Part shown: one piece after another, positions 13,241-47,178 of the stretch
How positions within the stretch are numbered: the stretch's first letter is position 1
Layout of the letters: every line of letters begins with the position of its first letter
NCBI GenBank assembly: GCA_020055645.1
Contig: CM034546.1
Location: forward strand, 80,724,001-80,788,000
Reading direction: 5' to 3'
Length of the DNA: 64,000 nt
DNA from: Tomocerus qinae
Lineage: Eukaryota > Arthropoda > Collembola > Entomobryomorpha > Tomoceridae
Program-made: the position numbers and the translations under genes
Notes under the pieces: model-generated
What the model saw: the letters and a program-made list of their open reading frames with translations, nothing else
The model's database searches: none
What the model was told of the DNA's origin: nothing

Positions 13241-13672
13241 TGCATACGAGTACGCACAAATATACCTACATACAAACATTATTCAATGCGCATGAGTCAG
13301 TTTTCGTTTATCCTATAGTAGTGATACTTCATCAACGAAGAAAACTGAGAACGCCAGATTGAAACAAATGATTAAGCAACATAAAACAGCACTTAACGAC
13401 TACCATAATGTAAATTGTCATCATTGTACATCACTATAAAGTAGATTGTAAATAGATTGTATAAAGTGATCGAAGGTTTTGCTTTTATCTGTTTTACTGG
13501 TCAAGAACAAAAATATTAAAACACTTGATTGATTTGATTAGAAAGAATAAAACGGTTAAAAATACGTATAATTCATGGCAGTGAGGATTTGCATTACTCG
13601 GTGACATATTTCTAATTATTCATTCGTTTATCTGTTTTAATAAAATATATTTACAAAGACTGTAAAGCAAAA

Positions 13673-15541
13673 ATGAAAAAGGTTTTTATCTTGTCTTTAT
13701 GGTTGACTATGACCATCTTCGGGCATAGTCAATCTTCAAAATTTCCTGGATCCTTAAGAAATTCGTTGGCCGAAAAGGGTAGAGTTAACATTTTTGCAGC
13801 CATGAAAGAAGGCACGGCGGAAGTATTGAGAGAAGTGGAAAGAAGTCTACCATCGAGAGCCACTCACGGCCTGAGGACAACTGCGGTATACAGCTCCCTA
13901 AAAGCTCATGCCGAACGATGCCAGAAAAATGTCCTAGCAAAACTCCAAAGAAACCCAGAGTTGGAAATTCAAAGTTTTTGGATTATAAATCAAGTGTACA
14001 TTAAAAATGCGGATGCAGCAACTGTGGAAGTGTTGGCAGCCATGGAAGAAGTCGTAGAAATTACTGAAGAGCAAATCGTCCACATTGAAGAAATTGTAGT
14101 AGGTCCGGTTGAAAAAGGTTTCAGAAATCCCAGAACTGAATGGGGTCTGGAAGATATGAATGTGCCTTTGGTGTGGGGAATGGGTGGAGGGGGAAATGGA
14201 ACTGGAGTCGTCATCGGAAATATCGATACTGGAGTCCGGCACACTCACGAAGCATTTAGAAGCAAGTGGGTTGGCACAGCGGGATACGGATGGTATGATC
14301 CGGAAAATAAAACTTCCATTCCTTTTGACGACTACAATCACGGTACGTTATTCTTATTCTGGTCGGCAAAAGTAAATCTAGGGTATATTTTTATTATTCG
14401 TGATAATTTAACATATATTAACAACATGACATGAGACATTCCAAATATTTAATTTTTGAAACAGAAGTTGTTAATGTTGTTATTATAAGGATAGGCATCT
14501 GATTATTTACAACTGATTTATGCTATCAGTGTCATTGTATTTATTTTTAGCATTACAGTACAGTAGTTAAACATTTGTTTTTGATGTAAACTCAGGCACT
14601 CTTACTATTGGAGCATTAGTTGGAGATGGAGGCATAGGTGTAGCTCCTGGTGTAAGTAAAAAACAAATTATCCTAAAGCTGTAGGTACTACTTGTAGATT
14701 ATAATATATTATTATTATAATTAAATGGCTTTGTTAAAATTAATTGTTATCAATGTTAATATTATATGTAGGCTAAGTGGATGGCATGCAAGGCATATCG
14801 AGGTGATGGAACAGCATTATCTTCTTCGTTTGTAGCATGTGGACAGTTCATGGCCTGTCCTTCAGACACCTCAGGAAACAATACAGACTGTTCAAAAGCC
14901 CCTCATGTCGTCAGCAACTCTTGGGGATGGTACGGTGGCGTAACTTTATTCAATCCAGTTTTGGAGGCTTGGATTACCGCCGGCATCCTTTCCTCATTCT
15001 CTGCTGGAAACGAGGGAGCTTGCAGGTATAAAAACATAGCAGAACATCTAAACTTAAAACAATAATGGTAACACAATATTTTAACATGTACTTGTTTCCC
15101 TCTAGCTCGATATTATCCCCTGCTGATCAGCCAAATGCCATTGCAATCGGGGCAATAGGACCCAGTCATGATTTGGCATACTTTAGCAGCAAGGGACCAT
15201 ACCTTGGCCAAATTAAGCCCGACATATCAGGTCCAGGAACCGGAATACGTACTGCAGATCATAGCAGCGATTCTGCATATGTAAGTGCGGCGGGTACTAG
15301 TTTAAGTTGTCCGTTGGCTTCTGGAGTCTTGGCACTCATGAAAGGTGCTTTCCCCAATCTTGGTCACAATCAAGCTAAAAACGCTTTGTTGCAATCTGCA
15401 AGTCGAGATATTAGACCAGCCGGAGTGTCATGTGGAGGAGTTAGTGATAGCATATTCCCAAATAACCATTTCGGCCACGGACGTGTTGATGCTTTAGCAG
15501 CAATGAGATTGCTCAACACAATGTACTTAAACCAAAATTAA
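13673..15541 (+). CDS. secreted subtilase (S8 peptidase, bacillopeptidase F-like)
   Basis: A four-exon gene: 13673-14342, 14596-14651, 14772-15025 and 15106-15541, all with GT-AG introns whose phases fit, giving 471 codons. The product starts with a signal peptide (MKKVFILSLWLTMTIFGHSQ) and a prodomain to about residue 160, followed by the S8 catalytic domain. The catalytic aspartate is in NIDTGVRHTHEAF, the histidine in DYNHGTL (split by intron 1; the usual HGTH reads HGTL), the oxyanion asparagine in SAGNEG, and the serine in AGTSLSCPLASG, so the triad is complete. The WMACKAYR and APHVVSNSWG blocks place it with bacillopeptidase F-type subtilases, a mainly bacterial branch. It probably acts as an extracellular endopeptidase after prodomain removal. 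A polyadenylation signal (AATAAA) lies at 15576-15581. No disabling change was seen. Confidence 0.85.
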
Positions 15542-18620: not shown

Positions 18621-18925
18621 ATATCGGTAATTAACATTAATCTAAAAATTAGTGCATTAATTAGTTACCGTAATCAGTTACGGGATACTGACTGTCGCCT
18701 TGCCACGGTTACTCGTCAGCCATTTTGGAAGCCATTACGGCAGTTGTGTTTGGATCGTTCATCCAAAGTAAATTTGAATTTCCCGCCATTGGGGAAACTA
18801 GAGACAGTGCACGTCTCATCTACAAGTGAAAGTGTTTGTGAGCTCTCTACAGCTACACCAGGAAAAGTCTCATCTCAAGGTGCCCCGTAAGTTGTTCTTT
18901 CTCTTTGTCTCTTGCATAAAGCATC

Positions 18926-21900
18926 ATGGAAGCCGTCCAGAGGAACCGACGGGCCTTGAACACAGAGATCACTCGGATCGCTAATGTACTTGCCCAGTAC
19001 GACAAAAGGAAACCGATGCCGAAATCAGAGAACGTAGTACAGGAGAAGAGTCTGTTTGCCTGCAGACAACGGTACTACAAGGTCTTGGAGGAGTGCAGTG
19101 TCGCCGCCAAGACCACTGCGGAGTACGACCGCGAAGAAGCAGAGTTTCTCACTCTCATCGAAAAGATGGACAAGTTGAGCATCAAGCTCGAAGACATGAA
19201 GATCGCCGCTGCCGCACTAGTGACTGGAACCTCAGAAATCAAGCTACCGAAGCTTGAACTACCACGGTTCTCCGGTGAGGTACACCAATGGCTTTCCTTT
19301 CATGATCTCTTTTTAGCGTCCATCCACCATAATACGAAGCTATCTGGAGCACAGAAGCTTCAATACCTGAAAGGTGCAGTGGACGGTGAGCCGTCGAAGC
19401 TCATCAGTAGTCTCCAGATAACAGACGCTAACTACGACGTCGCCTGGAAGACCTTAGAGGATCGGTATCAGGATAAGCGTGAACTCATCCGAGGTACGTT
19501 CGTCCGACTCCTCTCACAACCGAACAGTATTACGGATTCTCCAGCTATGCTACAGACTCTAGCCGATACTTCTCGTGAGTGCGTGCAATCCTTCGTGACT
19601 TTGGGCATTCCCAAAGAAGAAGTGTGTGAGCTTCTAATAGTGCACATCATCACGCAAAAGTTGGACTCAGAGTCTCGCACGCAGTGGGAACGCAAGCAAG
19701 AGAAAGGTAAACTTCCCACATTTGAACAATTTTGTGAGTTCCTTGATGAACAGGCCAGAGTCACGGCCGCAGCAAAACCGTCGTCGTCCAAGTCTCAAGC
19801 AAAGTCCAAGGATCGCCGTCCTGGAGCAGCCATGCATTATGGATCATCGGACGCAAAACCACGAAGTGAGTGCACGTTTTGTAGTGGTGAGCATCACATA
19901 TTTTCGTGTTCAGCCTTTGCGGCTTTAACTGTGCTAGACAGATGGACATCTGTAAAGAGTAAAGCCTTATGCTTTAACTGCTTGGAATTTGGGCACAGAA
20001 CTGAGAACTGCACGAAGAGGAAGTGTAGGCATTGTCGGAAGCCCCACAATCGCTTACTCCACCCGGAGAAACCTCCGCGAAAGCAAGATTCGCCTGCACC
20101 AACTACTACGGATCCACCAGAAAAGGTACAAGTCAGTTTTTGTTCGTCTCTATCAGCATCACGTACGCAAACTCTGCTGTGCACTGCGCTCGTACGAGTG
20201 AAGGACAGCAAGGGACAGCTACAAGTGTGCAGAGCTCTGTTGGATAACGGCTCGCAGACGTCTACAATTACTACAGCATGTGCAACTCGCCTAGGACTAC
20301 GTAGGCGCAAAGTGCACATACCCATCTCAGGCATTGGTGGTGTGGATGCAGGTACGTACTCGGAAATCACTTCTCTTAGCTTTTCGTCATGCTACGCTAC
20401 TCAGCCTACATTCGATGTCAACGCTATCGTGATGAAAGTCATCACTCATCCTTTGCCCACGTACAAAATCACGCAAGTGAATTGGAATCACCTACAAGGA
20501 CTTCAACTGGCAGACCCTCAATACAACGTCCCTAGCAAGATTGACATGCTGCTAGGTATGGACATTTACAATGCTTTGCTTATGGATGGCATGAAGAAAG
20601 GCGTACAGGGTAGTCCTACAGCTATCAACACGGCCCTCGGTTGGATCGTCGGAGGAAAGCTAGGAACTACGCAGCCTACTTCACTCGCTACGCATCACGT
20701 CCATTGCGACATGGATGAAGCGCTTAGAAAGTTCTGGGAACTGGAAGAGCTGCCATGGCAGAAGTTCTTGTCGCTCGAAGAGAAAGAATGCGAAGAACAC
20801 TATGCAGCTACGCATAGTAGAAACCTTGATGGAAGATTTATCGTGCGCCTTCCCTTTAAGAAAAATGCAGAGCCACTTGGAGACTCTAGGAACATTGCCA
20901 TGAAACGCTTGAAGAGCACCGAACGAAGATTAGGCTTAGACCCACCTTTGCATAAAGAATACCAGACGGTAGTTAGTGAGTATTTGCAGCTTAATCATAT
21001 GGAATTTGTCCCCGAGCGTGAAGTGTTTCCCGACAGACAAGTGTACTACATGCCACACCAGGCAGTGTTAAAGCCCACTAGTACCACGACTAAACTGCGT
21101 GTAGTGTTTGATGCATCAGCAGCATCATCCAATAAAGTTTCACTGAACGAAAATCTACTAGTAGGTCCCAAACTGCAAGACGACTTAGTGTCGATACTAG
21201 TTAGGTTCCGCAAGCATGCGATCGCATTTACGGCAGACTTGGCCAAGATGTACAGACAAGTACAGATGCATCGCGATGATATCGACTATCAACGCATTCT
21301 TTGGCGAGCCTCTACTACTGAACCTGTACGAGACTACAGGCTTCTGACTGCTACGTTTGGAACTGCCTCAGCACCGTACTTAGCTATCAAGAGCATTCAG
21401 CAACTAGCTACGTATGAAGAAACCAAGCATCCAGAAGCAGCGCAAATAGTACGTAGAGATTTCTACGTTGATGATTTGATGAGCGGTGCGGAGAGTGAGG
21501 AACACGCAATCAAGCTACAGAGCGAGTTGATTGCAATGTTACAGCTCGGCCAGTTTGAACTACGGAAGTGGTCATCCAACTCTCCCGTACTGCTAGCCTC
21601 CCTCCCACCTGAAATGCGTGAAATCAATTTGCCTTTGTCGATCGACGAAAATGAAACTATAAAGACATTAGGACTTAAATGGCATCCTGCTACGGACTGC
21701 TTTTCATTTACAGTCACTCTCACGCAACAAGTCACGGCACCAACCAAGCGGATAGTGTTGTCAGAAATTGCTAAAGTGTTTGATCCGCTTGGCTGGCTGT
21801 CCCCAGTGACTATAGTTGCGAAGACTTTCATACAGACGCTATGGAAGGAAGAAATCGGCTGGGACGAAGCATTACCGCAAGAACTCCAATCTCATTGGAA

Positions 21901-24028
21901 TGAATTAAGAGAGCAGCTGCCTACTCTCCATGCATTGAAGATACCACTCCACGTCCTTACAGTGAATGTTGTTGAGACTCAACTGCACGGCTTTAGTGAT
22001 GCATCGGAACGTGCATACGCTGCAGTTGTGTTTCTACGCTCTGTTGATTCAAATGGAACTGTGCGCGTCAGAATGGTAGCTGCTAAAAGTAAAGTGGCTC
22101 CAGTGAAGCAAGTGACTTTGCCTCGCTTAGAATTGTGTGCCGCAGTTCTACTCGCAAAGTTGATGCAGTGTGTGCATAGTGCGTTAATGCTACCTGTACG
22201 AGAAAACTACGGCTGGACGGATTCTACGATCACTCTCGCATGGCTCTCATCCCCACCTCAACGCTGGTCCACATTTGTTGCAAACCGTGTTTCTGAGGTA
22301 CAGCAGACTGTGCCATATATTGAATGGAATCATGTACGGAGTGAGGATAATCCTGCAGACTGTGCATCCAGAGGGATTTCACCGTCTGAACTCCTCACTC
22401 ACAATCTGTGGTGGAACGGGCCTGAGTGGCTCGCAGTGCCTGACTTTGTGCCTACTAGCTATACTGAGCAGTGTTTCGCTCCGCCTGAAGAACGAGCGAA
22501 GAAAGTGCTACATGTTCTGGTGGATGACTCTATGCTACATAGATATTCAGATGTAAGTCGACTACTTAATGTTACTGCATACTGTTTACGCTTCCTTCGT
22601 AATGCTCGAATGAAAGCAAGTGCGCGAGGTACTAGGCCAGAGCATATCAGTCCACCCAACACGTCCGAATTAGATGATGCATTGCATACATGGGTGAAGA
22701 TAGTTCAGTCGAACGAGTTTCACTCGGACATTTGTGCTCTTAAAGCAAACAAGGAATTGCCCACTAGCAGTAAACTGAAGTCGCTTGTGCCATTTCTCGA
22801 TGAAAATGGAATTCTGCGCGTTGGCGGACGGCTGAAGAAATCAGCATTGCACACAGATGCCAAACATCAAATATTATTGCCGAAGAATCACCACTTCACT
22901 CATCTCATCATAGCATACTACCACAAGAAAGAATTGCACGCAGGGCCTCAGCTACTACAAGCATCAATTCAGCAGAAGTACTGGATTCTGGCCGCCCGCG
23001 ATGCTATAAGGAAATATGTGCGCCAGTGTGTACGGTGCTTTCGCTTCCGTGCACAAGCTACGCAGCAGAGAATGGGAGAACTTCCAGCATCTCGTGTCAC
23101 CCCAGCACCTCCATTTCAACGGTGCGGAGTTGACTATGCTGGCCCATTTCTGCTCACCGCACGGAAGGGACGAGGACAGAAGAGCTACAAAGCCTATGTA
23201 GCTCTCTTCGTGTGCTTCGTGTCTCGTGCGATTCATTTGGAACTGGTATCTGATTTGACTACGGATGCTTTCATGGCTGCATTCCGTAGATTTATTGCAC
23301 GTCGTGGAAAGCCTACAGACGTGTATAGCGATTGCGGTACGAACTTCGTTGGTGCACGCAACAAGCTCGATGACCACTATAGGAAGTTTATGTCTGTAGC
23401 CCACAACGAAGAAATGGAACGAGAATTCGTACGCGAAAGGATCCACTGGCATCTCAATGCACCTGCATCGCCACACCATGGAGGTATATGGGAGTCTGGC
23501 GTGAAGTCCATGAAGCATCACCTCCATAGAACGGTCGGCAATGCAATTCTCACCACAGAAGAGATGTCTACACTGCTAGCGCAAGTAGAAGCTTGCCTCA
23601 ACTCCCGTCCTATCACTGAACTGTCAAGCGACCCGAACGACTTGCTGCCGCTTACGCCTGGACATTTCCTCATCGGACGGCCTCTCACTGCACTCGCGGA
23701 GCCTTCGCTCACGCACCTGAAGGAGGGACACCTATGCCGCTGGCAACATGTACAGCAACTGTACCAGCACTTCTGGAATAGATGGTCCACGGAATATCTC
23801 GCACGGCTCCAGCAACGGAAGAAGTGGACTACGGTGCATCCCAACATCAAGGTAGGAGATGTAGTGCTTCTTACGGATGAACGCCTTGCACCAAACAAAT
23901 GGAATCTAGGACTCATCACAGCTACCACGCCTGGAAAAGATGGTTTAGTGCGCGTAGTGACTGTGAAGACATCAGCAGGGAGTGTGCAACGCTCCATTGC
24001 TAAAGTGTGCATATTACCTATAGGATAA
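18926..24028 (+). CDS. BEL/Pao Gag-Pol polyprotein
   Basis: One open frame of 1,700 codons. The order fits BEL/Pao: a gag region with two CCHC-type zinc knuckles (around residues 315-360), an aspartic protease (LLDNGSQTST, about 437), a reverse transcriptase (FTADLAKMYRQ about 767; YVDDLM about 846), an RNase H region (GFSDASERAYAA), an integrase zinc-binding H2C2 module (about 1336-1375), and an integrase core with the D-D-E residues in GVDYAGPF (about 1402), YSDCGTN (about 1467) and GIWESGVK (about 1521). A C-terminal DNA-binding tail of the DUF5641 type follows. Gag and Pol are in one frame with no shift. No stop or missing catalytic residue was seen, so the protein is probably functional. 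Confidence 0.95.
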   Translation: MEAVQRNRRALNTEITRIANVLAQYDKRKPMPKSENVVQEKSLFACRQRYYKVLEECSVAAKTTAEYDREEAEFLTLIEKMDKLSIKLEDMKIAAAALVTGTSEIKLPKLELPRFSGEVHQWLSFHDLFLASIHHNTKLSGAQKLQYLKGAVDGEPSKLISSLQITDANYDVAWKTLEDRYQDKRELIRGTFVRLLSQPNSITDSPAMLQTLADTSRECVQSFVTLGIPKEEVCELLIVHIITQKLDSESRTQWERKQEKGKLPTFEQFCEFLDEQARVTAAAKPSSSKSQAKSKDRRPGAAMHYGSSDAKPRSECTFCSGEHHIFSCSAFAALTVLDRWTSVKSKALCFNCLEFGHRTENCTKRKCRHCRKPHNRLLHPEKPPRKQDSPAPTTTDPPEKVQVSFCSSLSASRTQTLLCTALVRVKDSKGQLQVCRALLDNGSQTSTITTACATRLGLRRRKVHIPISGIGGVDAGTYSEITSLSFSSCYATQPTFDVNAIVMKVITHPLPTYKITQVNWNHLQGLQLADPQYNVPSKIDMLLGMDIYNALLMDGMKKGVQGSPTAINTALGWIVGGKLGTTQPTSLATHHVHCDMDEALRKFWELEELPWQKFLSLEEKECEEHYAATHSRNLDGRFIVRLPFKKNAEPLGDSRNIAMKRLKSTERRLGLDPPLHKEYQTVVSEYLQLNHMEFVPEREVFPDRQVYYMPHQAVLKPTSTTTKLRVVFDASAASSNKVSLNENLLVGPKLQDDLVSILVRFRKHAIAFTADLAKMYRQVQMHRDDIDYQRILWRASTTEPVRDYRLLTATFGTASAPYLAIKSIQQLATYEETKHPEAAQIVRRDFYVDDLMSGAESEEHAIKLQSELIAMLQLGQFELRKWSSNSPVLLASLPPEMREINLPLSIDENETIKTLGLKWHPATDCFSFTVTLTQQVTAPTKRIVLSEIAKVFDPLGWLSPVTIVAKTFIQTLWKEEIGWDEALPQELQSHWNELREQLPTLHALKIPLHVLTVNVVETQLHGFSDASERAYAAVVFLRSVDSNGTVRVRMVAAKSKVAPVKQVTLPRLELCAAVLLAKLMQCVHSALMLPVRENYGWTDSTITLAWLSSPPQRWSTFVANRVSEVQQTVPYIEWNHVRSEDNPADCASRGISPSELLTHNLWWNGPEWLAVPDFVPTSYTEQCFAPPEERAKKVLHVLVDDSMLHRYSDVSRLLNVTAYCLRFLRNARMKASARGTRPEHISPPNTSELDDALHTWVKIVQSNEFHSDICALKANKELPTSSKLKSLVPFLDENGILRVGGRLKKSALHTDAKHQILLPKNHHFTHLIIAYYHKKELHAGPQLLQASIQQKYWILAARDAIRKYVRQCVRCFRFRAQATQQRMGELPASRVTPAPPFQRCGVDYAGPFLLTARKGRGQKSYKAYVALFVCFVSRAIHLELVSDLTTDAFMAAFRRFIARRGKPTDVYSDCGTNFVGARNKLDDHYRKFMSVAHNEEMEREFVRERIHWHLNAPASPHHGGIWESGVKSMKHHLHRTVGNAILTTEEMSTLLAQVEACLNSRPITELSSDPNDLLPLTPGHFLIGRPLTALAEPSLTHLKEGHLCRWQHVQQLYQHFWNRWSTEYLARLQQRKKWTTVHPNIKVGDVVLLTDERLAPNKWNLGLITATTPGKDGLVRVVTVKTSAGSVQRSIAKVCILPIG

Positions 24029-32084: not shown

Positions 32085-32294
32085 AGCATGTAAAGTCTTA
32101 AAGTCCAATACCAGGCTTAACTCTAAACTTTTAATTCGCTGGTGTACTCTGCAGATGGAAACAGAGTTGCTACTTGCGCAGCGTTGGGAGGTTCCTTCGC
32201 TGCGCAAATAGCCACGCTGTTTCCATCTGCAGAGTACACCAGCGAATTAAAAGTTTAGAGTTAAGCCTAGTATTGGACTTTACATGCTTGTCCA
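32085..32294. mobile_element. hairpin element of about 210 bp
   Basis: Arms 32085-32183 and 32199-32294 are inverted repeats (GCTTAACTCTAAACTTTTAA and its complement) with a loop of about 15 bp. The left arm contains a small internal duplication of AAAGTC. It lies about 540 bp upstream of the first ceramidase start codon. Confidence 0.75.
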
Positions 32295-32829: not shown

Positions 32830-35800
32830 ATGAAATTTTTGAGCTTGTTGGTGTGTATTTCGATTTCGATAGTATCGTTAGCGAACTCTGCTTTTGGTCA
32901 AGATGAAGAAGGCATTTACAGAATTGGAACTGGAATTGGTGACGTCACAGGTCCTGCAGCTGGAGTGCAAATAGTAAGTTGGTAAAGGAATTGAATAATT
33001 ATCATGCCACAGCTCTTTAAAAACATTGCTCGCTGAATTTAAGTAAATCTGTTTTTGCAACAAAACCATGTAGAGCGGTACCATAAAACAAAACCTCCTT
33101 GCTGCTGGGATTCATACAAGACTCTACGCCCGGTCATTTATAGTCCAATCTTTATCCAATGATAAAAAAGTCGTTTTTGTTTCCTGTGATTTGGGAATGT
33201 TTGATCATGGACTAAAATTGGAAGTAAAATATTTCTCTTTTCGTTCAAAAATAAATTTGACGCAAAAATAATTTGCAATTAAAGTTGATTAAACATTTTT
33301 AAGGTCATTAAAAAGCTGAAAGGCATCTATGGGAACACTACATATACTGAGAAAAATGTACAAATCAGCGCCACGCATACCAACAGTGGTCCTTCGGGTT
33401 ACATGCAATATTATGCCTACATTGCAAAATATGGATTTAACCCATTGACATTCAGGGCAATTGTTGATGGAATCGTTGAAAGCATTCAAATGGCGCATAC
33501 AGCCATGACGCGTGGCCAAATATATCTGAACAAGGGAGATCTTATCGGCTACAACGAAAACAGCGAACCTAAATCGTATGAGATGAACCCAGAAGAAGAA
33601 AAGGCAATGTACAATAATTCAAATGTGGACACGAAAATGATATCTTTAAAATTGGTGGCGCTGAAAGATAACGGCATGGAGGAACCGATCGGGTCTTTTA
33701 ATTGGTGGCCTGTTGATCCGATTTCTTTTAATGCTTGGGATAACCCTTTGATTTCCTCTGATAGTCGAGGTTATGCGTCTGTTACATTTGATTACCAGAT
33801 GAACAAAGAAGAAAGACCCAGAGGAGAAAAATTCGTCTCAGCATTTGTCGCTTCGAATTTAGGAGATGTCAGCCCAAAAATACCAGGACGATTAAACGTA
33901 AAAGATAAATTGGAGAAAGTTGCCATTCTTGGTCAAGCCCAGTTTGAAAAGGCATACAAGCTATTCAATGGTAGTGAGGGTAACCCAATCCTTGTCAAAG
34001 GACCTATTGACTTTGTTCAGAGATACGTTAACCTGAAGAACAAAATGGTAAGACCTTTTCGACCAAAAAAGCCTGCTAAATAGTCCCATTTTTAAATTAT
34101 GTATTTCCTGGCACAGTTTTCAAGAAAGAGCTATTTAGCTTAAAATAACGAACAGCCTAGGTGGGCGCAAGTGGTAAATGAGCTTAATACATTATGTTTT
34201 ACAAATAGTAAATAAAGTAAAATGAGATACATAGTTGAAATTCTCTATTGTCAGACCAAAATAACAAGGTATTTGGTGCCACCAATACCAGTTACTATGT
34301 AAAATGCCATGCATAATTCAATTTGTCCTATAACACCCTAAAATCTTAAAAATATTTTTATAATTGGGAAATATTTGACTACATACTGAATTTTGAATAA
34401 CTTACAAGTTTTTCCAATTTGTAGGTTAGCATTGATAATCCAGAAGATCCGGAAGGGCCAGGTATAATCATGCTTCTATGTAAAGCAGCATTAGGTTATT
34501 CATTTTTTGGATTGGACCCGAAAGCCGACCCAGGAAAATTGCCTATACAATGGAAAGCTCTCTTTTCTTCGGGTGTTTTCAACGCAAGTATGCCCTTGCA
34601 AAAGTGTCAAAAGTAAAGCTTTAACTTATCTTAGAAATCTTAGAATATTCATAGAAGTTGTTATATTATGTTTTGAACTCCCATGTAACAATTTATGTAG
34701 GCCAAAATCTGTAGCAATGGCATTTGAAAAGACCATACTACCTTGGAAATGGATGCCTTCTATAGTGGATCTTAACATTCTTCGTATAGGCTCAATTGAT
34801 ATCGTCAGCATGCCGGGAAAATTTACAACCATGGCCGGACGAAGGTTAAAAAAGAAAATCAGAGACCTTGTGCCCAATCAAGAAATCATTATTTCTGGAC
34901 TCGCAAACAATTATATTAATTCTGTTGCTACTCCTGAAGAATATTCGATAGAGCCACAAGGATCTGCTGGCGGGGCTACACTTTTCGGAAAATATACTTT
35001 AAACGCCATCATTGATAGCCATAAATATCTTGTGACTGCACTTGATAAAGTAATATTTTCTTTTATCGAACCACGTAAAACATTTCCGGAAAATTAATTT
35101 TCATTTATACTTTTGATTACAGAACAACACAGTCAATCCAGGAATACGTCCCCTAAATTTAAAAGACTTTTTTAAAACAGAAAGAAATATTAAAGATAGA
35201 GTTGATAGGTTGCCAAAAGGAAAAACATGGGGAGACGTACTGATCCAGCCACCAAAAGTTGTGCATCCTGGAGAAAAATTACATGTTCAATTTCTCACCC
35301 CAAGTCTGAGACATAATCCCCTTCGGAACAAATCCCACTTTTTGATTCAAATTCAGAAGAACGAAATGGATTGGACGGATGTACGAACCGATGCAGATTT
35401 GGATACTACGTAATTAAAAATGAAGGCTTTCCAATTTGTTTTTAAGGGGATGGCACCAGTCTTATGGAGTTCATGGACCGACAGATCTGAATAGGATTAA
35501 TATATGTTGTAGCACTATTTTTTCTGACCAAAAGTCATTATTGTGAAAATTCAATATGGGCTACCGTTTTCGAGATATCTGTGGTCAAAAACTGCCTTTT
35601 TAACGTTAGGGGGGCAATCCGGCAGCCGAAACCCGCAGATTATTGTTATAATAACTATGGTTGGCAGGTAACAAATCTGCGGGTTTAGGCTGCCGGATTG
35701 CTCCCCTAACCTAACGTTAAAAAGGCAGTTTTTGACCACAGATATCTCGAAAACGGTAGCCCATATTGAATTTTCACAATAATGACTTTTGGTCAGAAAA

Positions 35801-36435
35801 AATAGTGCTACAACATATATTAATCCTATTCAGATCTGTCGGTCCATGAACTCCATAAGACTGGTGCCATCTCCTTTGTCTTCAGTTTTGTACTATGATA
35901 CAATAGATACTTACTTGTCGTATGTTTATTATAACTTTCACACTACCTTTACTCTTAACAGATTCTATTGGAACAGAGTAACAAACGCAGGAAATATTTA
36001 TTGGTACAATATTCCTAATGATGTAGAATACGGAACATATCGAATGCGTCATTTCGGATATTTTTTGGAAAATGAAAAGGAGGCAGCAAAACCTTTTAAC
36101 GCTACTAGTAGTACTTTCCAGGTACTATTAAGTCAAATAATTTCGCTGTACATTTTCAAGCTTTTAATGCGGGCGTCAATATGATGTCAATTGCAGATTC
36201 ACCTAAATACCTTTAAATACATAATAATCATTCTTTTCAATGCAAATATACCCGAATATCAATTTTGTCATAGATAGCTGAAATGCCAAGTTCAACTACA
36301 GCAGCTTCAACGCAACCGCCTACCACTGGTATTGCAAGAACAACGACTCAAACTTCATCTGCTCATATTACAAACATTTTCAGCGCTTTTGTGATTTTAT
36401 TTGCCGTGTTGATTAACGGTTTTGGTATCTTCTAG
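32830..36435 (+). CDS. neutral ceramidase paralogue 1, zinc site lost
   Basis: Eight exons: 32830-32973, 33074-33223, 33304-34047, 34425-34612, 34701-35049, 35123-35409, 35962-36121, 36274-36435. All have GT-AG introns with matching phases, giving 727 residues with no stop. The product has a signal peptide, then the GDVTGPA start of the mature domain, the THTNSGPSGY block, the catalytic GDVSPK block, the RRLKKK region and the C-terminal Ig-like domain. Neutral ceramidases hydrolyse ceramide to sphingosine and fatty acid using a zinc ion and a serine nucleophile. The serine is kept (Ser288). Of the four family zinc ligands, only His123 remains; the others are Asp236, Lys449 and Ser483. The second active-site histidine is Asn125. 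The Thr/Ser-rich tail ends in a hydrophobic stretch, suggesting a GPI or membrane anchor. It is probably a pseudoenzyme. Confidence 0.85.
35449..35871. mobile_element. foldback MITE inside ceramidase intron 6
   Basis: Arms of about 195 bp (GATGGCACCAGTCTTATGGA and its complement) around a short loop at about 35640-35675. It occupies most of the intron between exons 6 and 7 of ceramidase paralogue 1; the corresponding intron of paralogue 2 lacks it, so it arrived after the duplication. The arms are nearly identical, indicating recent insertion. Confidence 0.9.
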
Positions 36436-36909
36436 TATGTTATCCACTTTTAAATGTATCTTGATTTTGTCTTTGCTGTGATTTGTTGGGCTTTAATTTT
36501 AATTTCAGATAATAATATTATTGTTTATTGTGAAAATTTATTTCAATGCGAACTGCAATCAAAAAGAATTTAAAAAAAATAAAAATGTATTAACATTAGA
36601 GAATCTGCGGATTGTATGCAGATTATCCTTCTTTATCCTTCGATGCATTGAATGGCACCTACACTTTAAAGTTGCTGGTTTTAATTTCACATTGACAATT
36701 ATATTCTATTTGTTTTACATTTTAGACAATTAAAAGATCGTCAACCACAAATACCATATGATCGGTTCCAAAGTTTACTCATCGTGTGCAGATCAAATAA
36801 TATAATATTTTAGATGAAATCTATGCTTCGTTCATACTCCTTTGCCAAATTTACATCTGTAACGATATGCTTCTCATCTCACAATCACCTATCAATGATT
36901 AATTATTAT
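36436..36909. other. intergenic, no gene recognised
   Basis: 3' flank of ceramidase paralogue 1. No further coding region is supported. Confidence 0.5.
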
Positions 36910-37089
36910 CAAGGTATCGAAAAACCCTGGTTTTTTAGGAAAAAACCCTCGAACTCGGGTTTTTTTGGGTTTTTTGGGGTTTTTTGGGTTTAAGGGTTTT
37001 TTTATATAACTATAGGTATAAATACAAGCCTATATACTATACCATGTATGAAAACTACAGCTGACAACAACAACAACCGTGTCAACTAC

Positions 37090-38219
37090 CAGTGGCGGCT
37101 CTAGGATTTGCGAGGCCCTGGGCAAAATGTTCGCGCGAGGCCCCATAATAATAATTCACATATATGCAAATTATTATATTAATTCAAATCTACGAACCTT
37201 TTCCGTTTTTAAATGAAATTGGCAAATGAAAAATGAATTTTCGCGCTATTTTCAAATTTTTTGTTTTTTTTAATGTTATCGAAAACAAAACAAGTACGTG
37301 TACAGAAGTGAGTTTCGGGAGGGACTGTATTATGTGATACTTATATCTCTATTACATATATTCGCAGCGCAGCATCCCAGCACGAAAAGCTTTGCCAATT
37401 TTGGACCAAAATTAGTCAAAACTGGCCTAAAAATGGCAACTAATCAATTTTTTGCTATTTTAAGAAAAAATATCTTTTTTCTAGGATTTTGGGGTGGGGC
37501 TTCAGCCTATAAGGTTTTCCACCTCACCATCCACCTCCTTTATTCAAAATAAGACCCTAAATCTCTGTTAAAAACTATGTAGGCGCTATGCGGCATTTTA
37601 GAATTAGAATATTTTATTCATTTTTTTGAAAATTTCTTTTAAAATTTAAATAAACTATTAGTGGAATTACAAGCAAGTATCCAGGAATTTGGCCTAAGGG
37701 GAGCTCACCAAAATATATTGATAAAATTAAGGCAAATACGCGCGAAGCGCGAAATTTTTAACCTGTTTTGACATAAAAATTTCCTTTTTCCGGATACTTG
37801 AAGGGTCCTGGCCCTCTCTCTGGATACGTGCTTGAGTGGAAAAATAATTGTCTACATCTACTGCAATTGCAATTACGCAGTTTTGGTATCGCAAAATGCT
37901 ACAAATTTGTGAATTGAAATACATATAGTAATTCTATAATAATTCTGAGAGATGCTGCTTTGGTGTCACCAGTATGTTTTTACTAGATTGCGCGATGTCT
38001 ACTTTCGGTATACTTTTCTTCCTTGACTTCTAAAAATGGTTCTGTAAAAAATTGTGTAACAAAACGTATAACTTAAACCAAAATGCCAAACCAGCATTTT
38101 TGAAGTGAAATCAACACAGAGAAGTTGAAATTCTTACTTTAACAAAGCTCTGCGCGAGGCCCCAAAAGCGCGAGGCCCTGGGCAACTGCCCAGTCTGCCC
38201 ATTGGGAAAGCCGCCTCTG
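37090..38219. mobile_element. hAT-type non-autonomous element, copy 2 (1,130 bp)
   Basis: Has the same tips as 28025-28965 (CAGTGGCGGCTCTAGG and AGCCGCCTCTG), with the perfect 8-bp duplication TCAACTAC (37082-37089 and 38220-38227). It is longer than copy 1 mainly because of a small insertion at about 37670-37840. Confidence 0.9.
37670..37840. mobile_element. small nested insertion in hAT copy 2
   Basis: This stretch is absent from copy 1. Its tips are CAAGCAAGTATCC and, inverted, CAAGCACGTATCC, and AGTGGA occurs on both sides. It is related to the CACGTGCTTG-tipped repeats in the palindrome arms. Confidence 0.65.
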
Positions 38220-38813
38220 TCAACTACTATTACTTAACGTCAATGAAAAGAAAAATTAAAGCATAAAAGTTTAATAAAATTTATGTTGTAACGTAGCAAG
38301 CAGTATTTTTATGAACATCTATATTATTATTACTGTTTGATAACAACTAGTGAAATATTAAGCAAAATATTTTACTGACTATATTGACTTTATGAAATTA
38401 TTCCTTTGTTAATTTGAAGCTTTAATTGCAAAGCATTACATTAATGAATATGTAAGTGATAAATTGAAATTATGTGTACAACAACACTATAAACATAATC
38501 TTCACAATGCAATGACTAAAGTATACATAAAACTAACATTATTATAGTCCTCACATTACGATACATTAATTACGCTTAGAAGTGTAGAACTTATATTTAT
38601 TTTGTTTCCACCTGATTATGCATTTGTTTACATTTTTGAATAGAAATTAGTATGTATTGCGTATCTAGATGGAGCTGTAGTGCACATTTTTGTATGTTTT
38701 GTAATAAACCCAAAAAACCCGGGGTTATTTAAGTAAAGCGGGGTGGGTTTTTTGCCAAAAAACCCAAAAAACCCCAACCCATAAAAAACCCGACCCACAA
38801 CCCTGATTATTAT

Positions 38814-39264
38814 TTGCATCCCATATATCACGATCTAAGATAATACTGTGTTTTTTCTATATTGATGATTTAATTAAAATTGATATGACCAATTTGGGAT
38901 TAAAAACAATGAGTTAAAATGCTGTACAGACAATCTTTTAATGATATTAATAAACATTACTTGGCATATTCCATAACAAATTGATTACTGATCGAATAAT
39001 TATGATTGATTTTACCAAATATGACAATACTGAATCAACATTGCTCTTGCCCTATATTATCAACAGGTGTTTAGGCAGCCGTTATCTTCCCATTCAAGAT
39101 TTCAATACAAAATCAGCCGTACATGAGTGTCTGTGTTAGTTATCATTAAATTCACAAACACGACAAACAAATTCCAATCTGTCAGTTTGAACTGAACATT
39201 TATTTATTAAAGGAATGCCTTGGGTGTCATTTGGTTTCAACTGCACAACACATTCTCAATTAAA
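38814..39264. other. 5' flank of ceramidase paralogue 2
   Basis: No repeat or RNA gene recognised. It should hold the promoter of the downstream gene, but I see no convincing TATA box. Confidence 0.4.
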
Positions 39265-42200
39265 ATGAAAATTCTAGTCACATTAATCGGGCTAGCAGTG
39301 CTTGCAAAATCGTCCACTGCCCAAGATGCTGAAGGTATCTACAAAATTGGTACTGGAATTGGCGACGTGACAGGTCCTGCTGCAGGCGTTGTTTTGGTAA
39401 GTAATAATTGCATTTTAAAATGTAGCTGTAACTGTAGCTGCAAATGAGATAAAAAATTACCTGAATAGTTTTCGCTTGGAATACCGATTAATACATTATT
39501 ATATCTGTGATAATAAAACGATATTGCATGGCGATTGGAAGGCTTATGAAAATGCGGCTAAAACCTTAAAATAATTTGATTTACATAAATTTTAGAATGG
39601 CTACGTGAATCCAATTACACTAGCTGCTGGAATTCATACAAGACTCTTTGCAAGATCTTTTATCGTCGAATCATTAGACAATATAGACTCTGAAAAAAGA
39701 GTCGTTTTTGTTTCTTGTGATTTAGGAATGTTTGATCATGGAATTAAAATAGAGGTAATTATAAAATAGTTTATTGTTAGGCAATTCTAAATTGGAAATA
39801 AGTTGGTTTGAATTTCAAATTCTAAATAGTTTTCGAATCTATATCAATTTCTATGCCATTCTAATGATATAATTATTCTTTTTGTATGTACAGGTAATCA
39901 AAAAGCTAAAAGCCATCTATGGCCATACCAAATATACTGAGAGAAATGTTCAGATCAGCGCAACGCATACTCACAGCGGTCCTTCTGGGTTCATGCAATA
40001 CTATGCTTATCTTATCATTGAAAGCTATGGTTTTAATCCATTAACATTCTGGGCAATCGTGGATGGTATAGTAGACAGCATTCAAATGGCAGATGCTTCT
40101 TTAAAACCTGGCCGAATATATCTGAACAAAGGAGACCTAATTGGGTACAACGGAAATAGGGCGTCACGCGCCTATGAATTTAACCCCCCAGACGAACGAG
40201 CAAACTACACTGACAATGTTGACAAGGAAATGATTTCTTTGAAATTCGAAGCCATTGACGACAATGGAAACGCGGAGCCGATCGGTTCTTTCAACTGGTG
40301 GCCTGTTCACCCGATATCCTTCAACGATTGGGACAATCCATTAGTTTCTTCTGACAACCGAGGCTATGCAGCTGTCAAATTTGACTACGAGATGAACAAA
40401 GGCGACGGAGCAAGACCCGGTAGAGGAAAATTCGTTTCAGCATTTGCCGCTTCTAATTTAGGAGATGTAAATCCAAGAATACCTGAAAGAGTAAATGTTA
40501 CAGAAAAATTAGAAAAAGTTGCCCTCGTTGGCGAAGCACAATTTAAAACGGCATTTGCACTATTTAATGATATCGGTAAACTAATTCCAGTCAAAGGACC
40601 TATTGATTTCGTCCAACAATATGTCGATATGCCAACTAAACAGGTATCGGCCGGAAAAAATACATTATTATTGATTGCCCAATAAATACATCTTAGGCCT
40701 TGTGTTTATTAAATTGTTGCATATACGTCAAGATTTACACGTGTTTAGGTTACTATTTCCAACCCTGATGACCCTAACGGTGGCACAACTACAATAAATA
40801 TCTGTAAAGCTGCCTTGGGATATGCATTCGTAGGATTAGATCCTGGACAGAAAGACTTTTGGGATTTTATCCTCCACCTCATTCCCGATAATACTCCAAA
40901 TGAAGATATGATAACATGTCACGCGTACGAGATTAAAAAACGATAAAATATTATAATTATTTTAAAATATGATTAGAAGAACTTTAATGTTTTATTAATA
41001 GACCAAAACTCATTGCATTAGCTGCCGGACAAATGACGGATCCTTTTGACTGGGCACCTTCAATAATTGATCTTAATATTCTTCGTATTGGTAACGTTGA
41101 TATTGTTGGTGTGCCAGGAGAATTCACTACAATGTCTGGACGAAGGTTGAAAAGAAAAGTCCAGGAATTAGTGCCAAATCATGAAGTTATTGTTGCTGGG
41201 CTAGCCAACAATTATATAAATTACATTGCAACGCCTGAAGAATATGGCGAAACGCCACATCAAGACAGTGCTGCTGGAGCCACGCTTTTCGGACCGTACA
41301 CTTTAAATGCCATCATTGACAGCCACCGATTGCTTGTGGATGCAATGAATAGAGTAGGTTTTTTGAATCTATTACTAAACCCATTTATTAAAATATAATG
41401 GATGTTTAAAATTTATTCTAAACTATTTATTTACATCTTTAAAAATGAATATTTATAAAACACAGGGGGAGTCCCATTTGGTGGAACAAGGAACACCTCC
41501 ACCATATCTTTTAGACAAAATAAAGCCAAAAAAGGATACTAGAGTTGATGTATTGCCAAAATGGCCTAAAGAGGCAAAATGGGGAACTGTAGTCACTAAG
41601 CCTGCAAAGGTTATGCATCCAGGAGATACTCTGATTGTTCGTTTTGTCACTCCAAGTCTAAGACATAATGCTCTCCGGAAGCAATCCCACTTTTTGATAC
41701 AAGTACAGAACGAAAACGACCAGTGGGCTGATATACGAACAGATGCCGATTTAGACACAACGTAAGTCAATTTAAGCTTATAGTAAAGACACTAACCAAA
41801 CAAGCTTTAATTTTGAATAGTTAATTAAATGTAAACTTCGGCAAAAATGCTAAATTTTTAGCTATGAATCTGAGTCTAAGTTGTGCTGGAATGTATAATA
41901 TTAAAAAGAAATTCTCTAAAGTTCCAAATTTGTTTGATTGCATAAAATGTAAAAAAAGAAAAAAAATTTTATTTATTTTTTATTTGCATGCTGATTTTTA
42001 GATCATTTCTTGGTTTTTCGTTCATTTTTAATCCAAACTTCTTAAAATTATTTTCTGGAACATATTTTCTAACAGAGTATTTCATTTTTGCAGATTTTGG
42101 TGGAACGCGAAGAACAACATTGCGGATATATATTGGTTGAACATCCCAAATGACATTCCTTTCGGTACTTATCGGGTTTATCACTCTGGATATTATTTGG

Positions 42201-42456
42201 AAAAAGTAGACGAAGAACCAAAACCATATAATGGGACTACCGACACTTTTCAAGTAAGAGCAATGGATTTGTGAAACTTTATTTATTTAAAATGAATAAT
42301 AAGGATTTCCGTACCTAAAAGTGTTCATAAATTTCAATTTTACAGATCCTCGACCCTAATCCACAGCCTACCCAACCAAGCTCAGCAAGCACCCTTATTT
42401 CTTCATCTGGTATCTTCCTGGCTGCTATATTGCCTTTCCTTTTTAAATATCTTTAG
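39265..42456 (+). CDS. neutral ceramidase paralogue 2, nucleophile lost
   Basis: Eight exons with the same intron positions and phases as paralogue 1: 39265-39396, 39596-39754, 39894-40643, 40749-40924, 41002-41353, 41466-41761, 42094-42253, 42346-42456, giving 711 residues with no stop. It has a signal peptide (MKILVTLIGLAVLAKSSTAQ) and the complete ceramidase domain order. All four family zinc ligands are present: His122 in ATHTHSGP, His236 in WWPVHP, Glu446 in VPGEFTTM and Tyr480 in NNYINY; the second active-site histidine (His124) is also kept. The serine nucleophile of the conserved GDVSPN hexapeptide is replaced by asparagine (GDVNPR, Asn290). The C-terminus ends in a hydrophobic tail after a Ser/Pro-rich stretch, suggesting a GPI anchor. 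It may bind zinc and ceramide without hydrolysing it, or act through another residue. An AATAAA lies near 42625. Confidence 0.85.
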
Positions 42457-43219: not shown

Positions 43220-46200
43220 TTAGTACCTAGTCATGAGGTCTATAGCATACTTATTGAAAATCTCGTTTGCATCTTTTGCCATGAAAAAATCTCCATGATT
43301 CCCTTTCGGATCTAAGCCCCGCAAGTAGACATTATTCGGCAACTCTAAAGCCAGTCTTGAAATATCCTGGAAACACAAAAGTAAAATCGTGAATAAAAGA
43401 ATACATAGCATAACTATAATGTATATGGAATGGCGGAATGAAAATGGTAATCGGGCCTTTTCTGGGTTATTGAGTTCTTGAAATGGCATTCACCATTGTG
43501 AGCGGCAAAGGCTAAAGCCTTAGGGTGGGTCGCACACATTGTACGAAATTTACCACTTTTTAGGCTTTTTTACCATCACAGTGGTAAAAATGCACTTAAT
43601 GGTAAAAATGCATTGAATGGTAAAAATGGTAAATTTTAGCGATTAATTAGTCAGATTAATACAGACACACAAGACTTAATAAAATATAAGTTTTAAAACT
43701 TTATTGTCTATGAAATATTTCCAATTAGCCCCTTAATTAATCCTATTTATTTCATAGGTTCGCCGAAAGTTATAAAAAAAAATTATTGTGTTTGGTATAG
43801 CCAATTTATATACAACTAGAAAAAGCCCGTCCTACGGACGGGAAATAATCAACACTCCCCACTCCTAACAATACCAAATCCAATCATATTTGGTTTAATT
43901 TCAAAATATTGTAATTATTCTTGCGCCTGCGTACTTACACGAAGTTCATCTTTTACATTCAAACATTATCACGGAAATTTTTCACTGCACAACTCCACTT
44001 TAAGATTATCTTATGGGTATGATTGATACGAGTGTGCTAATTTAATTGCAATTGATTTCTCTATCGGCAAATAAGGATGACGAACACTTATTTAATTTGT
44101 GACAACCATCATCAACTGCTAAGCTATTTCATACTTAGGCATCGAATTTTATTCAAAATTTAAACACGAAATTTAAATGAAACTATTTTTTACCATTTTT
44201 ACCACTTACCACTACTTTGTATGTAGTGGTATTTAACGTTAAATACCATTAAAAATATTTTGTACACTGGTCGCACACCCTTAGATTAAGGCCCATATTT
44301 TTAATAAACACTCCCACTCTAATCTCCACTCTTTGAGAGTGTAAGGTACGTATTGAGGTACCTTTCACTCTCGAAAAAGTGCGTAAAAAGTGCGTGAGAG
44401 TGAGAGTCGAGTCATTAAAAATATGGGCCTAAGTTATCATGAAAAATTGGGTTAGGTTTGTAAGGTTGGACACCCCATAGCCTTTAAGTCTTGCTTGGCT
44501 GATCTGGGAGTAGTCCTTATAGAATACAATATAAATTATAGGCCCCCTGACCAGATACAGCACAATAATATTGTCACTTGTAATAATATCTATCTCTATA
44601 AAAAAGGAATTATAATTAATATTAATTCTAGCTTTAAGCTTTTAGTATCCTCGGGTGTTCAAATTGCTCGGGTGTTTTGCTGATTTGATACCCAAAAGCC
44701 CGACCGAAAATCCAAGAACCCGCCTATTCACGTGCAGATATATAGTATTACTTAACGGTTTTTTAATTTTAGGTTTTAATTTAGTACTTAGAAAGTTAGT
44801 TAGAACATATCAACAAACAATTCACCTTTTAATACTGACTCGATCTTTATAATTTCAAAATGCAAAATATATCTACTAGTACATACCTTAGGAGGAACCA
44901 GACTGTCAGTTTTTCCATAGAAAATGCCAACAGGAACTGTCGTAGCTTTCAAAAAGTACAGAGGAGGTTTTTCGGAGCCATAGACTTTTAAATTTTTAGC
45001 TCGACCGTAATTATAGTGCTCGAAATTCCCTGATCTTATCAACTGCACAAAATGTCGAAGTACTTTCACGGAGGATGAACTAGGATGCGTAGTAAGATAC
45101 TTAGGATAGTCCTGTTGAAAGGGATTATTAATTAGCCATAATATTATTATTAATTAAAATTTATGTCAATAGACAAATATAATCTCGTTTGATTACGTAA
45201 GTTGTAACAATAATAATGATGATTACGGGACCTTGGATTTTAGTAGCTTTCTATTTATGGCTACTGATTACTGTTCTTTGCTCTGTTACATATTATTTAT
45301 ACAATATTAATTGAGAGACTGTGTTGAACCAAGTTGTTTGTACAGTTATTAGCCAATGAACGGTCTTAATTATATCCGAATTATTTAATAAAACAGGAAG
45401 TAAAATAAAAAAAGTAGTTTGAAAGAATTCTGTTCATGCACATGAACGGAACGAAATCTTTAGACTCTATTTAAATGTAAAACAGATCATGAAAGATTAA
45501 AATATGTCTTCTTAACAGAAAGGCACAATGGGTGGTAGGCAACATAATTTTGTAAAATAGGAGCAATGGTCTGAATATTATTTTACATGTTGGTGAAAAT
45601 AATTTTCTTACATTTGAATTTGGAATTGAAAAACCTAGGATGATGTTGACAACCAAAGTGCAAATTGTAGTAGCTATTGGACGCCAGGCACAGGCACTCA
45701 TTCCAGCCAATTGTACAATATGGAGGAAAAACGGAGCCGGAAATTGTCCTTTTCCATAACCAATGACTCCTACTCCGATCTGAAATATTTTGTATACTAC
45801 TGGTAAAACTATATAAATAGTGAACTTAGTTAGTTGTTCTAATGGTAATTGTAATTGTTAATAACGCTATCTTGTGCTGGTGAATAACTATTGCCAATTT
45901 TTATACAAATTGTGGCATCAATTATTATACAGAAGTCTGCTTAGTATTGTCACTTTAATTCAATCTAGTTGAAAACTCTTACGTCCGCGAGAGGTCCGAA
46001 TCCTAACAAGAGTCCTACTAGCCCAGTCAAATGCTTGACATACACAGCCGGTGCTACTCCTACCATTAGACTGATCTTATTATTGTATTCAGGAAAATTA
46101 TACATGGCCATATGAAATACTAGTCCGCCCATAGAGTGTCCAATGAACTGTATCTTCGGTGCACCAGTTTCGTTTATAATGTAGTCAATTTCTGCAGGAA

Positions 46201-47178
46201 TATCATACCTTCCAATGTCATCGATGCTAAAGTTAAAAAAATTATATTTAAAAATCTCAATCTAAAATTATAATAAAAAATTTATACTTAAGCATCAAAT
46301 CGACCTAATGATAATCACTGTTTTATGTTTAAACTATTAATTAAACCTGTAATCGAAAAAGGCTTTATCCTTGTCAGTATATTTTATGTGTTTCCGAGAA
46401 TATCTTGTCCCACGAGCATTGGCTATAGTATTGGTAAGATATTGTTTCATTAGGTATAATGAGGATGTTAGAACTTTGAAATAAGTTGTAAATTTATTTA
46501 CTTATATTTTATATCGCTATATAGTATTAATTAAAATGTTTCATTGTAAAGCAATATTCAAAATACGTTTGAATTTGGTATATTCATATTATCATGTACT
46601 TACCAAGCCAAATATCATATCCCAAGTCAGCTAATTGTAGAGCTGTGCAATAAAAATTACAAGTAGAGGTTTTAGCATGGCCAAATTTCATACAATTCAA
46701 CAAGATTCAAAGCATTTTACCCAAAATCTTATCCGGATCGTTAAGAATCCAGACGCTGCTGTCGGACACTAGTCCATGGTGGAATAAAATTGGCTTTCTT
46801 CGAGGTATATTTCTTTTTCTACCAAATGGGATTCTTATCATGGTCAAAATATAGCCGTCGGCAGTTGTCACTTCATGAATTTCTGCAGGATAGCCATACC
46901 CTCGAATATAGTCAGGCTGAAAACGCAAAAGTCATTAGTACTCAAAAGGCATTTTAAATATTCTATAAATAATAAAAATTATTCACCACAGATTTAACAG
47001 CGGCCTGAGGTATCTGTCGGGTTTTAATTATATGGGTAACGTTTTTATAAAGACGTGGTTTTCGTTGAATTTCAGACTCATTACTTTCGTGAACACGCCA
47101 TCCAATTAATATGTAAAACAAAACAAAACTATTGTACACTTCCATTAAATGTGACAAATCGAGAGAAACTGATAACAT
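43220..47178 (-). CDS. secreted acid lipase (lysosomal acid lipase/gastric lipase family)
   Basis: Eight minus-strand exons: 46987-47178, 46721-46916, 46604-46642, 46347-46422, 45983-46226, 45612-45779, 44887-45111, 43220-43366. Phases fit throughout, giving 428 residues. Family landmarks in order are the GYGYPAEIHEVTTADGYIL block, the HHGL oxyanion block, IWLANARG, the nucleophile elbow GHSMGG (Ser199), the catalytic aspartate in YGKTDSLV (Asp374) and the histidine in GNHGDF (His404). The N-terminus carries a hydrophobic signal stretch; translation could instead start at the second ATG (47145). The enzyme should cleave triacylglycerols or sterol esters outside the cell or in lysosomes. The usual LGN before the RG motif reads LAN. 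The last intron is enlarged by two transposons. The gene is convergent with ceramidase paralogue 2, about 760 bp away. Confidence 0.85.
43537..44269. mobile_element. hAT-type MITE in lipase intron 7 (733 bp)
   Basis: Tips CATTGTACGAAA and, inverted, CAGTGTACAAAATA, with the perfect 8-bp duplication GTCGCACA (43529-43536 and 44270-44277). It contains GGTAAAAATG repeats and a TTTAACGTTAAATACCA palindrome. Same family as 26432-26660. Confidence 0.85.
44290..44429. mobile_element. 140-bp MITE, copy 2, in lipase intron 7
   Basis: Same tips and length as 31656-31795, with 3-bp duplication TAA (44287-44289 and 44430-44432). Confidence 0.8.

Follow-up and report, generated by a model that had tools for sequence, protein, structure and literature searches.

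A tandem pair of neutral ceramidase duplicates in the springtail Tomocerus qinae, one with most of its catalytic residues replaced and one with its zinc site retained

What has become of two adjacent neutral ceramidase genes that have each lost residues of the active site, and yet remain open over their whole length? The question is raised by a tandem pair in the springtail Tomocerus qinae, in a stretch of 64,000 bases (the window; C1:80724001-80788000) from an assembly of 334,443,149 bases in 115 contigs. Six of eight catalytic residues, including three zinc ligands, have been lost from copy 1 (forward strand, 32830..36435), and two of the eight from copy 2 (forward strand, 39265..42456). The explanation that we favor, with some confidence but well short of certainty, is that the pair is a specialized tandem duplicate in which copy 1 would be a lipid-binding pseudoenzyme of the cell surface and copy 2 a zinc amidase of altered activity.

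Both genes were modeled manually, with homology and splice sites as guides and without transcripts. Copy 1 encodes 727 amino acids in eight exons (32830-32973, 33074-33223, 33304-34047, 34425-34612, 34701-35049, 35123-35409, 35962-36121, and 36274-36435), and copy 2 encodes 711 amino acids, also in eight exons (39265-39396, 39596-39754, 39894-40643, 40749-40924, 41002-41353, 41466-41761, 42094-42253, and 42346-42456). All 14 introns (7 per copy) have GT..AG borders and neither frame contains a stop, in agreement with the original prediction, made from the bare sequence, that both frames are intact over eight exons. AATAAA signals follow the stops of the two genes at distances of 143 and 170 bases. 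Each protein matches two Pfam families above their curated cutoffs, PF04734 (E values of 1.4e-118 for copy 1 and 3.4e-132 for copy 2) and PF17048 (5.4e-27 and 1.8e-22), and, among solved chains, each matches only the neutral ceramidases of humans (4wgk) and Pseudomonas (2zws/2zxc) at an E value of ≤0.001. The two proteins share 60% identity. With the human enzyme, copies 1 and 2 share 36 and 37%, respectively; with the Pseudomonas enzyme, 31 and 33%; and with the product of a third gene of the same genome, on contig C4, 41 and 43%. Two inverted repeats accompany copy 1. One, within intron 6 (35444-35876), has 167-base arms that are 99% complementary, with a gap of 99 bases between them and a further 37-base pair inside, and is probably a hairpin-type nonautonomous element; the other (32099-32282; 85-base arms, 95% complementary) lies ~550 bases upstream of the start codon.

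For the active site, we compared the two copies with the human and Pseudomonas enzymes, the C4 gene, and the best 80 of 273 bacterial homologues at eight positions, which in human numbering are His194, His196, Arg257, His303, Ser354, Glu540, Tyr579, and Tyr591. We take the human zinc ligands to be His194, His303, Glu540, and Tyr579, following the original prediction and general knowledge of the family. At the eight positions, copy 1 aligns H123, N125, S185, D236, S288, K449, S483, and S497. It thus retains only the equivalent of His194 among the ligands; Asp236 (GAT, 33715..33717) stands for His303, Lys449 (AAA, 34819..34821) for Glu540, and Ser483 (TCT, 34921..34923) for Tyr579. Asn125 (AAC, 33382..33384) replaces His196, Ser185 (AGC, 33562..33564) replaces Arg257, and Ser497 (TCT, 34963..34965) lies opposite Tyr591 in a gappy stretch of the alignment; the hexapeptide serine equivalent to Ser354 is kept as Ser288 (AGC, 33871..33873). 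Copy 2 aligns H122, H124, R186, H236, N290, E446, Y480, and S495 and retains all four ligands: His122 (codon start 39966), His236 (40308..40310), Glu446 (codon start 41120), and Tyr480 (codon start 41222). Its two departures are Asn290 (AAT, 40470..40472) for Ser354 and Ser495 (AGT, 41267..41269) opposite Tyr591, again in the gappy stretch. The C4, human, and Pseudomonas enzymes carry the complete pattern, and all 80 bacterial homologues read H, H, R, H, S or T (68 and 12 homologues, respectively), E, Y, Y, being unanimous at seven of the eight positions. Because the homologues are nearly unanimous, the departures in copies 1 and 2 lie outside the ordinary variation of the bacterial set. Every residue and number given in the original prediction held up against the human, Pseudomonas, and 80 bacterial sequences, including the 34-residue spacing from glutamate to tyrosine in both copies, which reflects a common five-residue deletion relative to the 39 residues of the human protein. 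Loss of Tyr591 and of a subdomain from both copies, loss of Arg257 from copy 1, and the complete third copy did not figure in it.

The losses that arose in one copy after the split are concentrated in the catalytic residues of copy 1. Among columns conserved in ≥98.5% of the 80 bacteria plus human and C4, copy 1 has private losses at five of six catalytic columns and at 3 of 63 others (Fisher p = 2.9e-5); copy 2 has none at the six and one at the 63. The Ser354 change of copy 2 falls outside this count because the bacteria vary between Ser and Thr there. The contrast in copy 1 persists at looser thresholds (p = 9e-5 at 95% and 7e-5 at 90%), and a preliminary run with 37 of the 80 loci and a poor choice of frames gave the same picture (5/6 catalytic and 3/64 other columns). 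When losses common to both copies are counted as well, copy 1 has lost six of seven catalytic and 16 of 76 other columns (p = 0.0011), and copy 2 shows no contrast (1/7 and 14/76). Without the bacteria, C4 and human agree at 299 columns, of which 30 are changed in copy 1 alone, five of the eight catalytic positions among them (hypergeometric p = 3.3e-4).

Selection was estimated from the codons. Maximum likelihood gave a ratio of nonsynonymous to synonymous change (dN/dS) of 0.165 between the copies (dN, 0.284; dS, 1.72), with a ratio of 1 rejected (2dlnL, 249). By region, in copy 1 numbering, the pairwise ratio was 0.105 (residues 1 to 300), 0.144 (301 to 510), and 0.252 (511 to 675), and it was 0.169 over the 32-codon tail, where dS is saturated; none of the three regions nor the tail approaches 1. 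Comparisons of the copies with C4 were saturated (dS of 8.2 and 81) and were not used. For a neutral expectation, we gave each branch a dS of 0.86, half the pair value by assumption, and also tried 0.43 and 1.2. With seven residues taken as intact at the split, a copy 1 free of selection would keep 1.55 of them at a dS of 0.86 and 1.02 at 1.2; two are kept. The same copy would be expected, by a crude count, to have acquired ~85 stop-making changes, and none is seen. For copy 2, the probability of keeping the six zinc-site residues without selection is 1.5e-4 at a dS of 0.86 and 1e-5 at 1.2. With the reservation that dS is near saturation and was split equally, the active site of copy 1 has drifted roughly like a neutral site while its fold was held under selection, and the zinc site of copy 2 looks to have been held by selection.

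It is extremely improbable, in our judgment, that both genes are pseudogenes or are becoming so. The catalytic drift of copy 1 is close to neutral (two of seven residues kept, against 3.05, 1.55, and 1.02 expected at branch dS values of 0.43, 0.86, and 1.2) and would agree with decay, but open frames, preserved splice sites, and the dN/dS of 0.165 largely contradict it, as do the loss of only 3 of 63 noncatalytic invariant columns in copy 1 and the absence of stops. In neither copy is the frame interrupted or a splice site lost, and the pairwise dN/dS is not close to 1. The contrast between catalytic and other losses, together with the dN/dS, points to copy 1 being a pseudoenzyme that has kept its fold and not a gene in decay. 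Of the features expected of a pseudoenzyme, loss of catalytic residues is plain in copy 1 and weak in copy 2, and continued selection is found with the reservations on dS. Selection on both genes had been suggested, with dN/dS as the proposed check, and the ratio well away from 1, the few invariant columns lost, and the lack of stops bear this out.

The earlier claim that neither protein should be a normal ceramidase is likely to hold for copy 1 and may or may not hold for copy 2, which has kept its zinc site. Ser354 of the human enzyme has been described as holding Arg257, so a change of Ser to Asn need not abolish zinc chemistry, and copy 2 may still be a zinc hydrolase. An unlikely alternative, although one to be taken seriously, is that both copies are catalytically dead lipid binders and that the zinc of copy 2 is only structural or ligand binding. 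It would fit the changed Ser354, which is Asn in none of the 80 bacterial homologues aligned, and the disappearance of Tyr591 and the subdomain; on the other side, the remaining six catalytic residues are all present in copy 2, five of them being lost from copy 1, and this fits preserved chemistry at least equally well. The Pseudomonas enzyme, which is active, also has no such subdomain. That copy 2 might instead be an ordinary ceramidase, with its Asn codon an allele of the individual, an assembly error, or a site edited from A to I to give Ser (AAT to AGT), seems to us highly improbable. Asn290 is indeed a single base from the serine codon AGT, but Tyr591 and the subdomain are gone as well, and editing is speculation.

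Several changes are common to the two copies. The four-cysteine subdomain, 30 residues long in the human protein (Leu358-Lys387), where it holds two disulfides (PMC6952831), is absent from both; all four cysteines are present in C4. The human Cys448-Cys498 disulfide pair is retained in both. Tyr591 is absent from both, in a gappy part of the alignment where the stretch has been remodeled by a small insertion; the serine codons found there differ (TCT in copy 1 and AGT in copy 2) and therefore may not represent one common substitution. A further 13 of the 76 other columns conserved in ≥98.5% of bacteria plus human and C4 are changed in both. Because the subdomain, Tyr591, and these columns are altered in both copies, the ancestor of the pair was probably already far from the standard enzyme before the split.

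These common changes bear on the idea that the two copies had undergone complementary losses, which does not survive: the counts are lopsided, neither copy has Tyr591 or the subdomain, and pooling the copies rebuilds no full site. In the neutral ceramidase fold, the active-site residues lie within one chain. Complementation in trans of a split active site is ruled out by this arrangement and by the absence of Tyr591 from both proteins. A looser partnership, in which copy 1 regulates or pairs with copy 2 or the C4 enzyme, for example, as a heteromer whose dead subunit activates or positions the live one, is compatible with the explanation that we favor but on its own improbable. The tandem arrangement of one dead copy and one with its zinc site kept would suit it, and activation by a dead paralogue has been described for trypanosome AdoMetDC and prozyme (PMC5201418); however, with the residues in one chain, sharing of two half-sites is not expected, and signs of an interface were neither seen nor sought.

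Where did the pair come from? The original prediction had proposed a search for a canonical third copy, and a complete gene was found on C4 (C4:14296136-14325947), modeled in 10 exons over ~30 kb with long introns, that keeps all eight catalytic residues and the four subdomain cysteines. When the whole assembly was searched with the PF04734 profile, at least 11 pieces matched, and these fell at two loci, namely, the pair and C4; a candidate fourth copy was sought in the same search, whose counts are possibly lower bounds, and only those loci matched. All seven introns of the pair have counterparts in C4 in place and phase (a judgment by eye, and for the last intron from its donor side alone), and C4 has three more. 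In a tree of 25 rows, including 20 of the 80 bacteria, the pair, C4, and human form one clade (100/100), in which a long stem (1.39) leads to the pair; the branching order within this clade is not resolved. The absence of the subdomain from both copies, as from the Pseudomonas enzyme, led us to consider horizontal transfer or a bacterial origin, and both are ruled out by the C4-matching introns and the 100/100 clade; because of these, the pair is an animal duplicate and not a bacterial gene. With C4 as the only query, no relatives were found in viral contigs; three stretches matched a pattern, and none was a relative. The pair probably goes back to an old tandem duplication of an animal neutral ceramidase gene of the normal kind. 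The C4 gene probably supplies ordinary ceramidase, the pair doing new jobs.

Judged by hydropathy, both proteins have what may be an N-terminal signal and a C-terminal linker with a hydrophobic tail. The last exon of copy 1 (36274..36435) encodes a Ser/Thr-rich linker followed by a hydrophobic C terminus resembling the signal for a glycosylphosphatidylinositol (GPI) anchor, with 15-residue hydropathy means of up to 2.55; the last exon of copy 2 (42346..42456) encodes a Ser/Pro-rich linker and a similar GPI-signal-like C terminus, with means of up to 1.98. These features suggest that copy 1 is probably a secreted protein tethered to the cell surface through an anchor at its C terminus. When a GPI-like tail was looked for in C4, no convincing last exon was found; therefore, such a tail cannot be regarded as a novelty of the pair.

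In outline, then, we propose that, before the split, the Tyr591 element and the four-cysteine subdomain that covers the pocket had disappeared from the ancestor, which would also have carried a C-terminal anchor signal, so that it may already have been specialized while the ordinary complete ceramidase gene stayed elsewhere in the genome, on C4. After the split, copy 1 would have been freed from catalysis, with His196, Arg257, and all zinc ligands but one gone and the fold still selected. It would now be a protein without zinc, anchored at the surface, that binds a ceramide-like lipid or some other partner and leaves it uncut. Copy 2 would have kept its zinc site and Arg257 under selection, with Asn for Ser354, and could still be a zinc amidase or esterase of altered activity in which the Asn has assumed the role of the serine in holding Arg257.

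A number of points weigh against this proposal. Mutation of the serine, in work attributed to Galadari in 2006, reportedly abolishes the activity of human ceramidase, which argues against an active copy 2. The models of both copies depend on homology, anchoring is judged from hydropathy alone, and the tree flags the letter makeup of both copies. The catalytic set was taken from a review and the list in the original prediction after the losses were known; the 80 bacterial homologues are those closest to the Pseudomonas enzyme and no fair sample of the family, and animals are represented by human and C4 alone. Copy 1 may simply have changed somewhat more overall: it has 53 unique changes to 40 in copy 2 (chi-square, 1.8), or 30 to 18 where C4 and human agree (chi-square, 3.0), and its tip in the tree is longer (0.49 versus 0.16), so that a mild general excess of change is possible. 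The dS of 1.72 is near saturation, with an equal split between the branches assumed; at a branch dS of 0.43, the probability of zinc-site retention in copy 2 is only 8e-3, and a neutral copy 1 would keep 3.05 of 7 catalytic residues.

Among known proteins, human ASAH2 (4wgk) resembles both copies in its two Pfam domains and the Cys448-Cys498 pair but differs from both in having the subdomain and Tyr591, from copy 1 in its full zinc site, and from copy 2 in Ser354. ASAH2 is held at its N terminus, and, unlike it, copies 1 and 2 carry a C-terminal hydrophobic tail. The Pseudomonas aeruginosa neutral ceramidase (2zws/2zxc) shares with the copies the lack of the four-cysteine subdomain, and the absence of the subdomain alone therefore need not kill activity; unlike them, it has a complete H, H, R, H, S, E, Y, Y site. 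The C4 gene has counterparts for the seven introns of the pair but is longer, with three additional introns and a complete site. The human genome holds a segmental duplicate that we take to derive from ASAH2 and to lack most of the catalytic domain. This duplicate is named in the title of a reference within PMC6952831. Pseudoenzyme paralogues such as prozyme (PMC5201418) have lost catalytic residues while the protein is kept, like copy 1. No report of a ceramidase pseudoenzyme was found in open-access papers, subscription papers being mostly outside the scope of the search, and no such pair appeared among the matches listed for the broader pseudoenzyme literature. Among the matches listed for springtails and ceramidase, one springtail paper (PMC3325419) contains the word ceramidase. 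The same pair may be known already or may be common in related species.

The surroundings of the pair contain mobile elements and other genes. Between the two genes, a 1,130-base element (37090-38219) has the ends CAGTGGCGGCT and its near inverse, flanked by an 8-base duplication, TCAACTAC; from its ends, we presume it to be hAT-like. Farther upstream, an open frame of 1,702 amino acids (18920-24025) has the domains of a Pao-type retrotransposon, with peptidase A17 above its cutoff and the integrase core and reverse transcriptase matches below theirs. Two open frames at 13616-15541 resemble exons of one subtilase-family gene; the second (15032-15538) matches PF00082, and the first (13616-14431), with no Pfam match at an E value of 0.001, was joined to it by eye. 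Downstream of copy 2, on the minus strand (43220-46980), are pieces that by eye resemble an insect-type lipase gene; two frames were tested, with no Pfam match.

The neutral ceramidases are regarded simply as a family of enzymes. A more specific, and doubtful, version of the proposal is that the two proteins act as an anchored pair, the dead copy capturing a ceramide-like lipid and presenting it to, or regulating, the zinc-keeping copy, which would work without the hydroxyl residue of the hexapeptide. If this were true, copy 2 would be a zinc amidase of the ceramidase fold in which Asn replaces Ser/Thr. The pair is a natural experiment on two questions, namely, whether the disputed serine acts as a nucleophile or merely holds Arg257 and whether this fold can serve in lipid binding when catalysis is gone, with the complete enzyme in the same genome as the control.

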